From Leptotrichia hongkongensis (GTDB lineage: Bacteria > Fusobacteriota > Fusobacteriia > Fusobacteriales > Leptotrichiaceae), in assembly GCF_007990635.1 (NCBI RefSeq), contig NZ_AP019846.1:1550001-1614000 (forward strand): a stretch of 64,000 nt of DNA. Direction: 5' to 3'. Within the stretch, counting starts at the first letter, position 1. Each line of letters starts with the position of its first letter. Positions 29,467 through 36,796 of the stretch are shown in pieces. Position numbers and translations under genes: made by a program. The notes under the pieces were generated by a model, which saw only the letters and a program-made list of their open reading frames with translations, searched no databases and was not told the DNA's origin.

Positions 29467-29511
29467 ATTTATATAATTTTAGCAGTTTAATTTAAAATAG
29501 GTTTGAGTATA
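29407..29511 (+). mobile_element. 105-bp MITE-like repeat, copy 3
   Basis: Inserted at the 3' end of coaE. Its right end supplies the last residues of CoaE (NILKPILN) and its stop codon. Removing the element with one TA would end CoaE as ENKI followed by a stop, so the insertion only changed the tail. It is the most diverged of the four copies. Confidence 0.75.
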
Positions 29512-30117
29512 TTTTCAAATTCTATTTTTTTCAAAAAATCATCAACTTTTTTTTCCAAATCCTGAATATTTCCGTCATTTTCAATAACATAGTCACTTCT
29601 TTTCTTTTTTTCATCCAAAGACATTTGTGAATTTATAATACTCAAAGCCTCTTCTTTACTACGGTTATCCCTAGATAAAATACGTTTAATCTGCGTTTCT
29701 TTTTCTGCACTTACTAGCAAAATGTAATCAAATTCCTTTTCCCATTGAACTTCAAAAAGAAGCTGAATTTCCACAAAAATAATTTTATTTTCTTTTTTAC
29801 ACTCCAGAATCTTTTCTCGCATAATACGTAAAATCTCTGGATGCATAACAGAATTTAAAATAAGTCTTTTTTCTCTATTTCCAAAAATAACTCTTCCTAA
29901 TTTTTCACGTGAAACAATCCAATTTCCAGTATTATTATATTCTAAGACTTCTTTACCAAAATTTTCTACAATTTTTCCACAACCTTAGGAAATTTAATAA
30001 CTTCATGAGAAATTATGTCTAAATCAATAACTGGAAATTTTTTTCTTTTAAAATTTGACTAACTGTACTTTTTCCTGTTCCAATTCCACCTGTAAGCCCA
30101 ATAACTACTTTTTTCAT
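29487..30117 (-). pseudogene. coaE: dephospho-CoA kinase, frameshifted
   Basis: Last step of coenzyme A synthesis. The frame from the ATG at 30117 reads VVIGLTGGIGTGKSTVSQIL, the P-loop, then breaks in a run of seven A (plus-strand T at about 30041-30047). One extra A restores VIDLDIISHEVIKFP and all the rest, including SREKLGRVIFG and MHPEI. The C-terminus is rewritten by the repeat at 29407-29511. CoaE is normally essential, so a sequencing error is the likeliest reason for the break. Confidence 0.85.
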
Positions 30118-30341: not shown

Positions 30342-30468
30342 AAAAACAGAACTAAGAAAAGAAAAAATTGAAAAAATACTTATAATATGATAAAATTATA
30401 TGTATAATTTTGTGATAAATTTGGCGATTAAAAGTTTGATTTATAAAATTAAGATACAAGGAGGGAAT

Positions 30469-30873
30469 ATGGAACTTAAAGATATTCAGGAATTGATGAA
30501 AGTTCTAAAGAAAGAAGATATAGCAGAACTAAAAGTAAGATATGGAAAAGTAAAACTTACATTAACAAATTCTGAAACTACAAATATCGCAAATAATGTA
30601 GCACCTGTAACAGAAAAGGTTGAAAAAGAAACTCTTACAGCTGTATTAGCAGCAGAAGAAATTATCAAATCGAGTAATGTGGGAAGAATAAAGCTAGTAA
30701 GTTCAAAACCTGGAACTTTAGTAAAAAAAGGACAAGTTCTTGCAAAAATAAATACAATAGGAATTGATAATGATGTAAAATCTAATGTAGATGGTATTTT
30801 AAAAGAAGTGCTAGTGGCAGACGGCTCACCAGTTGACTTTGCAAAAGAACTATTTAAAATTGAAATTAATTAA
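30469..30873 (+). CDS. accB: biotin carboxyl carrier-like protein lacking the biotin lysine
   Basis: 134 residues from the ATG after AAGGAGGG. The N-terminus fits AccB (IQELMKVLKKEDIAELKVRYG), and the last 60 residues align without gaps to a biotinyl domain: PGTLVKKGQVLAKI...VDGILKEVLVADGSPVDFAKELF. At the hairpin where the family has E-A-M-K-x-M, this protein reads N95-T-I-G98-I-D, so the biotin-accepting lysine is a glycine. The protein cannot be biotinylated at the usual place. accC follows after 45 bases, so the pair is still an operon. Confidence 0.8.
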   Translation: MELKDIQELMKVLKKEDIAELKVRYGKVKLTLTNSETTNIANNVAPVTEKVEKETLTAVLAAEEIIKSSNVGRIKLVSSKPGTLVKKGQVLAKINTIGIDNDVKSNVDGILKEVLVADGSPVDFAKELFKIEIN

Positions 30874-30918: not shown

Positions 30919-32274
30919 ATGTTTAAAAAAATATTAATAGCAAATAGAGGAGAAATTGCTGTTAGGATAATTAGGGCAGCAAGAGAGTTAGGAATTGCCA
31001 CAGTTGCAGTTTATTCAGAAGCTGATAAAGATTCACTTCACGTAAAACTTGCCGACGAAGCTGTCTGTATCGGAACTGCCAGTAGTGCAGACTCATATCT
31101 AAAAATACCGAATATTATTTCAGCAGCACAGATTACAGGAAGTGAGGCTATTCACCCAGGATATGGATTTTTAGCAGAAAATCAAAGATTTGCTGAAATA
31201 TGTGATAAAAACAACATCGTATTCATTGGTCCAAAACCTCAACTAATCAGTATGATGGGAGACAAGGCAACAGCAAGGGAAACTGCTATCAAGCACAAAG
31301 TTCCAATAACAAAAGGGTCAGATGGAATTGTTCCAAATGTTGAAGAAGCCAAAAAAGTTGCACAATGGATAACTTATCCTGTTATGATAAAAGCAACTGC
31401 AGGAGGCGGCGGAAAAGGAATGAGAATCGCCCATGATGAAAAAGAACTTGTAGAAAATTTTGTTGCTGCACAAAATGAGGCAAAAGCGGCTTTTGGAAAT
31501 CCAGATGTTTATATTGAAAAATACGTTGAAGAACCAAGACACGTTGAAATACAAGTTATTGGAGATAAATTTGGAAATGTTGTCCATCTTGGAGAAAGAG
31601 ACTGCTCTATCCAAAGAAGACACCAAAAATTAATAGAAGAATCTCCATCAGCAGGAATTGATGCAAAAACACGTGAAAAAATGGGGAAATTCGCTGCAAA
31701 ATTAACAAAAGGAATTGGTTACGACAGTGTTGGAACATTGGAATTTCTTGTTGACAAAAACATGAATTTCTATTTTATGGAAATGAATACAAGAATTCAG
31801 GTAGAGCATACAGTAAGTGAAGAAATCACTGGTGTAGATTTGATAAAAGAGCAAATAAGAGTAGCCGCAGGAGAAAAATTAAGTTTTTCTCAAAAAGATA
31901 TAAATATTAATGGACATGTAATAGAATGCAGAATTAATGCAGAGGACTCTGAAAATGGTTTCCTTCCATCTTCAGGAGTTCTAGAAACATATATTCCATC
32001 AGGTGGAATTGGAGTAAGAATCGATTCTCATTCTTATCAGAATTATGAAATCCCGCCTTACTACGATTCAATGATAGCGAAACTTATCGTAAAAGGAAAA
32101 AATAGGGAAGAAGCTATTGCAAGAATGAAACGTGCCTTAAAGGAATTTATTATAGAAGGTATTGACACAACTATACCATTTCACTTAAAAGTGCTTGATA
32201 ATGAAGACTTTAAAAAAGGAACAATCTATACAAACTTTATTGAGACACATTTTAAGGATGCACTTGGTAAATAA
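30919..32274 (+). CDS. accC: acetyl-CoA carboxylase biotin carboxylase subunit
   Basis: 451 residues, full length. Visible are the start FKKILIANRGEIAVRIIRAA, the glycine-rich ATP loop KATAGGGGKGMRIA, RDCSIQRRHQKLIEE, and the active-site stretch FMEMNTRIQVEH. It carboxylates biotin carried on BCCP using ATP and bicarbonate. It looks fully active, which contrasts with the lysine-less carrier encoded just upstream. accA/accD are not in the window. Confidence 0.96.
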   Translation: MFKKILIANRGEIAVRIIRAARELGIATVAVYSEADKDSLHVKLADEAVCIGTASSADSYLKIPNIISAAQITGSEAIHPGYGFLAENQRFAEICDKNNIVFIGPKPQLISMMGDKATARETAIKHKVPITKGSDGIVPNVEEAKKVAQWITYPVMIKATAGGGGKGMRIAHDEKELVENFVAAQNEAKAAFGNPDVYIEKYVEEPRHVEIQVIGDKFGNVVHLGERDCSIQRRHQKLIEESPSAGIDAKTREKMGKFAAKLTKGIGYDSVGTLEFLVDKNMNFYFMEMNTRIQVEHTVSEEITGVDLIKEQIRVAAGEKLSFSQKDININGHVIECRINAEDSENGFLPSSGVLETYIPSGGIGVRIDSHSYQNYEIPPYYDSMIAKLIVKGKNREEAIARMKRALKEFIIEGIDTTIPFHLKVLDNEDFKKGTIYTNFIETHFKDALGK

Positions 32275-32380: not shown

Positions 32381-32776
32381 ATGAACGAATTAGGAAATGT
32401 AAATATATCTCAGGAAGTAGTAGCGACTATTGCAGAATCAGTAGTAGCAGAAATTGAAGGAGTACACAGCCTTGTTGGTGGAACTTCTAAAAACGAAATT
32501 GTTAAATTTTTCCAAAATGTATCTTCAGGTGGAAAAGGAATTGAAGTAGAAGTTGGAGAAACTGAATGTACATTAGATTTATACATCGTTGCAAAAATGG
32601 GATTCAAGTTACCTGCATTAGCTGGAGAAATCCAAACAAAAGTAGTAAAAGCAATTACTGAAATGACAGGATTAAAAGTTCAGGAAGTAAACGTATATAT
32701 TCAAAAAATTATAAAAGAAGACAAAAAAGAGAATGTTCAAGCTCCTGTAACAGAAACTGCAGAAATTGAAGAATAA
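32381..32776 (+). CDS. Asp23/Gls24 family protein (YloU-like)
   Basis: 131 residues: GNVNISQEVVATIAESVVAE at the start, VEVGETECTLDLYIVAKMG in the middle and MTGLKVQEVNVYIQKI, all Asp23 family features. Such proteins gather at the membrane with AmaP and are linked to envelope stress. The AmaP-like gene and nusB follow, the usual Firmicutes-type order accB-accC-asp23-nusB. The start has AGGAGGA. Confidence 0.92.
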   Translation: MNELGNVNISQEVVATIAESVVAEIEGVHSLVGGTSKNEIVKFFQNVSSGGKGIEVEVGETECTLDLYIVAKMGFKLPALAGEIQTKVVKAITEMTGLKVQEVNVYIQKIIKEDKKENVQAPVTETAEIEE

Positions 32777-32930: not shown

Positions 32931-33503
32931 ATGATTGCAATATTAGGATTTTTAGCAAGACTATCTGTAATACTTGGATTTGTTGGTATTGTATTTTCAA
33001 GTATATCAGATATTCTGTTTAGGACTGATTATTTAGGACAACTAGATAGTTTTATAGATTTAAGTAGTTTAAATTTTAAAATCTTAGTTGGACTATTATC
33101 AATAATTTATTTAGTAGTATTTTTACTTTCTTATATTAATAAACTTACAAAATATTCTCAAAATAGAAAAGTTAAAAATAAAAATGGAGAAATAGAAGTT
33201 TCCATAAAAACAATAAATGAAACATCAAAAGATTTCTTAAATGGACAGGAAATCATTAAAAATTCAAAAGTAAAATCATATCCAAAAGGAAAATCTGTCG
33301 TTATTGAAGCTACTGTAGATACTTATAATGTCGATAACTTAAATGAAAAACTTGCAGAAATTCAAAATAAATTATCTGAATATGTTTTTCATTCAACTGG
33401 AATTACTGTAAAAAAAAGTAAAGTAAAATTGAAAAAAGTTTTAGGAGAAACAATTGTTGAAAAAAAAATTATTGACTCTCCAACTAATCAAAAGAAAATA
33501 TAA
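32931..33503 (+). CDS. AmaP-like alkaline-shock membrane anchor
   Basis: 190 residues: two membrane helices (about residues 2-25 and 45-67) around a short loop, then a cytoplasmic domain with EVSIKTINETSKDFL and VEATVDTYNVDNLNEKL, in the style of AmaP, which anchors Asp23. It follows the Asp23 gene. The ribosome site is separated from the ATG by the hairpin at 32866-32922. After the TAA the same frame stays open for 28 more codons and stops at TAATG, overlapping the nusB ATG, so the original protein may have been longer. Confidence 0.75.
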   Translation: MIAILGFLARLSVILGFVGIVFSSISDILFRTDYLGQLDSFIDLSSLNFKILVGLLSIIYLVVFLLSYINKLTKYSQNRKVKNKNGEIEVSIKTINETSKDFLNGQEIIKNSKVKSYPKGKSVVIEATVDTYNVDNLNEKLAEIQNKLSEYVFHSTGITVKKSKVKLKKVLGETIVEKKIIDSPTNQKKI

Positions 33504-35513: not shown

Positions 35514-36010
35514 TTAGTCTCTTTTTCCCATTTCCTTATCTAATAAATATAACGTAGCGTTATTATTATCAACATCAAGTGAAATAATCTTATCAAGGAA
35601 TTTTGAGCTTGTTCTTCTTCTTCTTCCTGCTCTTCAGCAAATTCATTCAAGAATACTTCTGCACCATAATCTCCTAGTTCTCTTGCAAGTTTGTGAATAT
35701 TCTCAATAGAGGCTGTTACAGCTTCTTCATGTGCAAGAGCAGCTTCAAATACTTCTCTTACTGATGTAAAGTCCATTTTAGGTTTATCTAATCCCAAAAA
35801 TTCAATTTTACCGTTTCTTTTTAATACATACTCATAAAACTTTTTTGAATGTTCGATTTCCTCTTTTGCTTGATTTCCCATCCAGCTTGCAAAACCTTCT
35901 AATGCTCTTTCATCAAAGTATGCAGCCATAGCTTGATATTGGTAAGCCGCTGCTAATTCCATGTTTATTTGATTATTTAGTAAAACTTCTAATTCTTTAT
36001 TTAATTTCAT
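35514..36010 (-). pseudogene. duplicated ferritin gene, frameshifted
   Basis: Identical at the protein level to the ferritin at 36299-36796 for the first 137 residues, then broken by one missing T at about 35601-35604 (four T against five in the intact copy). The changed tail ends ten to twenty residues early. The ferroxidase residues are all before the break, so a shortened product could still fold in part. It keeps its own GGAGAG ribosome site. Confidence 0.9.
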
Positions 36011-36046
36011 TTTCTCTCCAATCTATATTTTTTATATCTTAAATTT

Positions 36047-36269
36047 TTAATTATGTTTTTCTAAACATTTTTCACAAGTACCTTTTATATAAAAATGTAT
36101 TTCATCAATTTCTACATTTCCCAATTTTGATAAATCAAATTTTGATAAATTTACATCAAAATCAACTATCTCTCCACAAGATTTACATTTGAAATGTCCA
36201 TGATTATCCGTGACTACATCATATCTTACTTCATTTTCTTCAATAATAATTTCTTGAATAATATTATTA
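36047..36269 (-). pseudogene. 3' fragment of perR inside the duplication
   Basis: Encodes only the last 72 or so residues of the PerR-like regulator (zinc-binding half) with no start. It fuses directly to the A/T hairpin behind ferritin copy B. Differences from the intact gene are silent, such as ATCAAAATCAAC against ATCAAAGTCAAT. Confidence 0.88.
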
Positions 36270-36298
36270 TATAATTACAAAATTATATACTACTTTAT

Positions 36299-36796
36299 TT
36301 AGTCTCTTTTTCCCATTTCCTTGTCTAATAAATATAACGTAGCGTTATTATTATCAACATCAAGTGAAATAATCTTATCAAGGAATTTTTGAGCTTGTTC
36401 TTCTTCTTCTTCCTGCTCTTCAGCAAATTCATTCAAGAATACTTCTGCACCATAATCTCCTAGTTCTCTTGCAAGTTTGTGAATATTCTCAATAGAGGCT
36501 GTTACAGCTTCTTCATGTGCAAGAGCAGCTTCAAATACTTCTCTTACTGATGTAAAGTCCATTTTAGGTTTATCTAATCCCAAAAATTCAATTTTACCGT
36601 TTCTTTTTAATACATACTCATAAAACTTTTTTGAATGTTCGATTTCCTCTTTTGCTTGATTTCCCATCCAGCTTGCAAAACCTTCTAATGCTCTTTCATC
36701 AAAGTATGCAGCCATAGCTTGATATTGGTAAGCCGCTGCTAATTCCATGTTTATTTGATTATTTAGTAAAACTTCTAATTCTTTATTTAATTTCAT
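36299..36796 (-). CDS. ferritin (non-haem, bacterial)
   Basis: 165 residues of the FtnA type. Ferroxidase ligands are visible in NMELAAAYQYQAMAAY (Glu), KEEIEHSKKFYEY (Glu, His) and AALAHEEAVTASI (Glu), with an unusual run of five glutamates (EEQEEEEEQAQ) near residue 130. It stores iron in the cytoplasm. The PerR-like gene is 36 bases upstream on the same strand, so regulator and iron store are probably one operon. Confidence 0.93.
   Translation of the reverse strand: MKLNKELEVLLNNQINMELAAAYQYQAMAAYFDERALEGFASWMGNQAKEEIEHSKKFYEYVLKRNGKIEFLGLDKPKMDFTSVREVFEAALAHEEAVTASIENIHKLARELGDYGAEVFLNEFAEEQEEEEEQAQKFLDKIISLDVDNNNATLYLLDKEMGKRD

Follow-up and report, generated by a model that had tools for sequence, protein, structure and literature searches.

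A carrier-like protein without the biotinylatable lysine is encoded beside accC throughout much of the Fusobacteriota and is probably a non-catalytic partner of biotin carboxylase

Why should a gene directly in front of an intact biotin carboxylase gene encode a protein that resembles the biotin carboxyl carrier protein (BCCP, AccB) and yet lacks the lysine to which biotin is attached? The question is raised by a 64,000-nucleotide stretch of the Leptotrichia hongkongensis genome (NZ_AP019846.1, positions 1,550,001 to 1,614,000; the window), in which the original prediction had noted that the E-A-M-K turn of a carrier-like protein reads N-T-I-G. Translation of the gene places N-T-I-G at residues 95-98 exactly as described, and the change from lysine to glycine is a two-base substitution with no indel. 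This protein, here called AccB-prime (protein P0001), is by function not an AccB, because the defining lysine was tested for and is absent. An alternative start of the open reading frame at 30400 is unlikely, since a strong Shine-Dalgarno sequence, AAGGAGGG, precedes the ATG at 30469. The relevant features are collected in Table 1.

Table 1. Coordinates of accB-prime, its neighbours, and the other biotin-protein and carboxylase genes of the same genome
Feature	Position	Strand	Basis or remark
AccB-prime, AccB paralogue without biotinylatable lysine	30469..30873	+	134 aa; coordinates include stop
N-terminal helix (residues 3-15) and beta-hairpin (18-34)	30469..30576	+	AF2 model, E. coli AccB profile alignment, column conservation
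Biotinyl-type barrel (residues 62-134)	30652..30870	+	pLDDT 93-98, Foldseek
Gly98 codon GGA, biotinyl-lysine position	30760..30762	+	tip of hairpin strands 90-96 / 99-104
accC, biotin carboxylase, intact	30919..32274	+	TIGR00514, 744.9 bits
Asp23/YqhY-family gene, conserved third in cluster	32381..32776	+	family match, gene order
Small membrane-anchored AmaP-like gene, usually fourth	32931..33503	+	gene order
ACC-type AccB with AMK, beside folD	L009:7633-8124		
AMK biotin protein among 5-oxoprolinase genes	L011:7377-7790		
AMK biotin protein among oxaloacetate-decarboxylase-type genes	L010:7485-7856		
accDA	C1:1694919-1696549		

The neighbouring accC product keeps its catalytic motifs (GGGGKGMR, RRHQKLIEESPS, MEMNTRIQVEH and ECRINAED), as had been stated. 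The accB-prime gene lies directly 5' of accC at every locus whose contig permits checking, and in some Fusobacteriaceae the two reading frames share about 10 nt; asp23 follows accC in the checked fusobacterial loci, usually with the AmaP-like gene behind it. No Pfam family scored above its cut-off for the window's AmaP-like gene. Elsewhere in the window, coaE (dephospho-CoA kinase; 29487-30117, minus strand) is spread across three frames, which suggests either assembly indel errors or a broken gene. Two tandem ferritin-like genes (35540-36796, minus strand) contain repeats that are about 98.8% identical over 722 bases, and the C-terminus of one copy is altered after a difference in the length of an A-run.

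The genome does not depend on AccB-prime for a carrier. A search for AMK-type sites, as proposed with the original prediction, found three biotin proteins, including a single AccB of the ACC type, and the genome also encodes birA and one lipoyl protein. There are two accC genes, the window copy and a copy beside pxpA; at two sites (L045:6439-8582 and L011:7377-9643) genes pxpA, pxpB and pxpC are accompanied by an AccC and a BCCP of their own. The pxpA-side AccC has up to 80% identity to Lachnospiraceae proteins, which suggests transfer, and this together with the pxpA/B/C neighbours rules out the second carrier/AccC pair as the acetyl-CoA carboxylase (ACC) of the genome. The housekeeping enzyme is most likely made of AccA, AccD, the window's AccC and the folD-linked AccB, and the window's AccB-like protein is thereby left over as an extra. 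An AccC without a carrier is ruled out by the AMK-type AccB elsewhere in the genome. Of the two explanations originally offered, the use of another carrier by the accC product is thus not needed, while a true BCCP elsewhere, with a structural or regulatory job for the copy beside accC, is strongly supported; the job itself we infer.

AccB-prime is present in 82 of 98 Fusobacteriota genomes, a count that excludes one genome (G060) whose sole match was weak. Glycine occupies the lysine column in all 81 AccB-prime proteins with a readable site, and lysine is found there in 22 of the 22 canonical AccB proteins read; the deepest genome with AccB-prime (G132) reads KIKALGVLKDV at the site. The change is therefore phylum-wide, beyond the single strain first considered, and the option that relatives would carry lysine fails, because all aligned relatives have glycine. 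Occurrence of AccB-prime follows that of AccC: each of the 81 genomes with a stand-alone AccC has AccB-prime, and none truly has AccB-prime without AccC. The sole mismatch (G024) is a contig-edge fragment, the gene being cut by the contig end, and was set aside. Because accB-prime and accC adjoin, a gap in a draft genome could remove both at once, but single-contig genomes without AccC (G015 and G091) give the same pattern of co-absence. Three genomes of one genus (G015-G017, one of them a single contig) keep accA and lack AccC, AccB and AccB-prime alike, and accD is also present in G015, where it was looked at; this pattern argues that AccB-prime is tied to the AccC half-reaction. The biotin carriers found in these three genomes (L259, L260) are of the decarboxylase type (glutaconyl-CoA/oxaloacetate-like), and their malonyl-CoA may arise by transcarboxylation. 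Of the control genomes, that of Thermotoga maritima likewise has an ACCA match and no match to the biotin carboxylase C-domain.

True AccB was read in 19 genomes, and where its surroundings were inspected they were mostly a conserved locus of the rex-folD type. Its separate conserved neighbourhood in both main families indicates that the two forms split before the families did. No AccB without the lysine was seen among the best matches in 35 Firmicutes, Actinobacteria and other genomes, where all 108 proteins read keep it, and a search of viral contigs gave no match. Three fusobacterial genomes have unusual arrangements. One (G062) encodes a 609-aa oxaloacetate-decarboxylase/carboxyltransferase-like protein fused to an AccB-like N-terminal part and an AMK biotinyl domain (L211:942-2768), and has AccC and AccB-prime at another place. 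In a second (G027), AccB-prime is only 74 aa long (L234:1937-2158), the barrel alone directly 5' of accC, the cause being a broken reading frame or an error. An extra accBC pair in the third (G043; L201), with the lysine kept and an AccC 55% identical to that of the window, was omitted as possible contamination.

How much of AccB is left in AccB-prime can be judged from family profiles and a predicted structure. The Pfam Biotin_lipoyl profile matches it at 41.5 bits (E 1.2e-10; cut-off 22.1), and the BCCP profile TIGR00531 aligns to residues 1-132 at 43.9 bits, its cut-off of 115.2 not being reached. A profile of AccB-prime orthologues covers E. coli AccB from the first to the last residue (E 9e-18), which argues that AccB-prime has the whole AccB layout rather than the biotinyl domain alone. 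P0001 is 20-31% identical to Firmicutes AccB. The N-terminal helix and hairpin correspond to the region of AccB linked to biotin carboxylase assembly. In the AlphaFold2 (AF2) model the linker between hairpin and barrel is disordered, and Foldseek matches BCCP structures, including 1bdo, 4hr7 and Arabidopsis BCCP1 (9a87), at TMt 0.83-0.92. The model was built on an alignment of canonical Firmicutes AccBs and thus shows compatibility with the AccB fold rather than independent proof of it; prediction from the single sequence reached a pLDDT of only 34.7. The gap-free alignment to a biotinyl domain that was originally claimed holds against the Pyrococcus BCCP domain; it does not hold against AccB-type domains, whose "thumb" loop is longer than that of Leptotrichiaceae AccB-prime by about 7-8 residues.

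Selection has maintained this protein. A tree made from a short alignment with the motif columns omitted, and left unrooted, unites all AccB-prime proteins in a single clade (support 100/99) that stands apart from fusobacterial and Firmicutes AccB together. In the genus to which the window belongs, most dN/dS values for AccB-prime fall within 0.11-0.25, against 0.01-0.07 for accC; AccB-prime is under purifying selection, looser than that on AccC. Its N-terminal columns match those of Firmicutes AccB in conservation. At the turn itself, the whole E-A-M-K-x-M-N-E context is lost and the AMK-turn columns vary freely, with Gly98 alone fixed. Outside the turn, K29 and K126 are well conserved.

Taken together, these results point to AccB-prime being, probably, a non-catalytic and stoichiometric partner of AccC in the fusobacterial ACC, serving as an assembly or regulatory subunit. 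AccB-prime would have arisen from AccB and come to fill the accB slot of the accBC-yqhY operon, retaining the parts of AccB that hold the complex together (N-terminal helix and hairpin, and barrel), with a fixed glycine in place of the lysine that accepts biotin. Carriage of the carboxyl group would fall to the true AccB from its separate locus. In a mixed complex with AccC and AccB, AccB-prime could set assembly and activity by stabilizing the AccC-AccB association, by filling carrier places without carrying, or both; the binding to both proteins and the effect on activity, its direction included, are presumed. Several points count against a subunit role: the true AccB retains its own N-terminal domain and so has no obvious need for a helper, AccB-prime evolves faster than AccC, and the confident structure model has canonical AccBs as its basis.

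Other roles can be envisaged for a lysine-less AccB in this position. The conserved order accB-prime, accC, asp23 and amaP-like gene would suit an adaptor that joins AccC to Asp23, for its control or membrane placement. A report on YqhY describes Bacillus subtilis YqhY as acting on ACC, with loss of yqhY selecting mutations in ACC subunits, and counts Fusobacteria among the carriers of the accBC-yqhY operon (PMC5437119). However, this operon in Firmicutes holds a normal AccB, which argues that control by YqhY needs no biotin-less AccB, and the adaptor role seems unlikely. Instead of serving as an enzyme subunit, AccB-prime might chiefly control the expression of accB-prime and accC. Such control over its own operon has been reported for the N-terminal portion of E. 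coli AccB, AccB-prime leads the accC cluster with that domain retained, and the co-loss with AccC fits such a role equally well. A domain acting on DNA or RNA would require neither a conserved barrel nor an invariant Gly98, and no regulatory RNA family was found in the accB-prime region; autoregulation as the main function is about as unlikely as the adaptor role.

Two further explanations concern the missing lysine itself. The conservation of K29 and K126 could mean that another residue is biotinylated or otherwise modified, so that AccB-prime would still carry a group, but both lysines lie outside the hairpin turn recognized by biotin ligase, the E-A-M-K-x-M-N-E context is gone and a true AccB is present, making this very improbable. 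The indel-type breaks in coaE and one ferritin copy of the same window might suggest that accB-prime is likewise a decaying relic, a strain-specific change or a sequencing error. The identical glycine in every one of 81 proteins from as many genomes, a dN/dS of about 0.2 and the indel-free nature of the substitution leave next to no room for this explanation, and sequencing error, strain variation and decay are regarded as refuted; a phylum-wide glycine under purifying selection is the product of neither error nor drift, and the original view that drift alone does not explain the gene stands.

The phylum to which Fusobacterium and Leptotrichia belong appears to have gained a fixed biotin-less carrier subunit for acetyl-CoA carboxylase, a drug target and the enzyme by which carbon is committed to membrane lipids. 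The accC-adjacent genes annotated as AccB in Fusobacteriota are misnamed as carriers. AccB-prime shares with AccB/BCCP (TIGR00531; E. coli 1bdo, 4hr7) the full domain order, the fold and the place before accC; it differs in the invariant glycine at the biotinyl-lysine position, the lost AMK context, a score far below the family cut-off and, in Leptotrichiaceae, the shortened thumb. The same gene order in Fusobacteriota and Firmicutes agrees with the accBC-yqhY report (PMC5437119), whereas the fusobacterial accB slot is taken by a paralogue that cannot be biotinylated, with the true accB encoded at a separate locus. A structural role for a BCCP part is known from Chloroflexus, in which the biotin carboxylase tetramer is held together, and its activity supported, by the N-terminal hairpin of BCCP rather than by the biotin core; the BCCP part of this BC1 protein is fused and biotinylated, unlike AccB-prime (PMC11077971).

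The closest parallel is with the plant BADC proteins (Arabidopsis BADC1-3), which lack the AMKL motif, bind BC and BCCP, and help BC-BCCP assembly (PMC11926652). As far as sequence can tell, AccB-prime works like BADC: both are BCCP-like proteins without the motif that exist beside a true BCCP, both are linked to the biotin carboxylase of a heteromeric ACC (AccB-prime by gene order and co-occurrence), and both are similarly distant from BCCP, at 25-30% for BADC (PMC11926652). BADC has been described as unique to the plant enzyme (PMC11926652), and searches of the open-access literature turned up no bacterial BADC. For an approximate BADC fragment, useful as a lead only, the AccB-prime profile gave 46 bits and AccB profiles 27-28.5. 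That AccB-prime and plastid BADC descend from one ancient biotin-less carrier lineage, with fusobacterial ACC an obligately five-subunit enzyme, is conceivable but unlikely. BADC is a nuclear-encoded plastid protein whose binding and effect on ACC have been shown (PMC11926652), whereas for AccB-prime we infer both. BADC is described as a glue and also as an inhibitor (PMC11926652), and if AccB-prime acts in the same way, this dispute becomes testable in a simple bacterial system.
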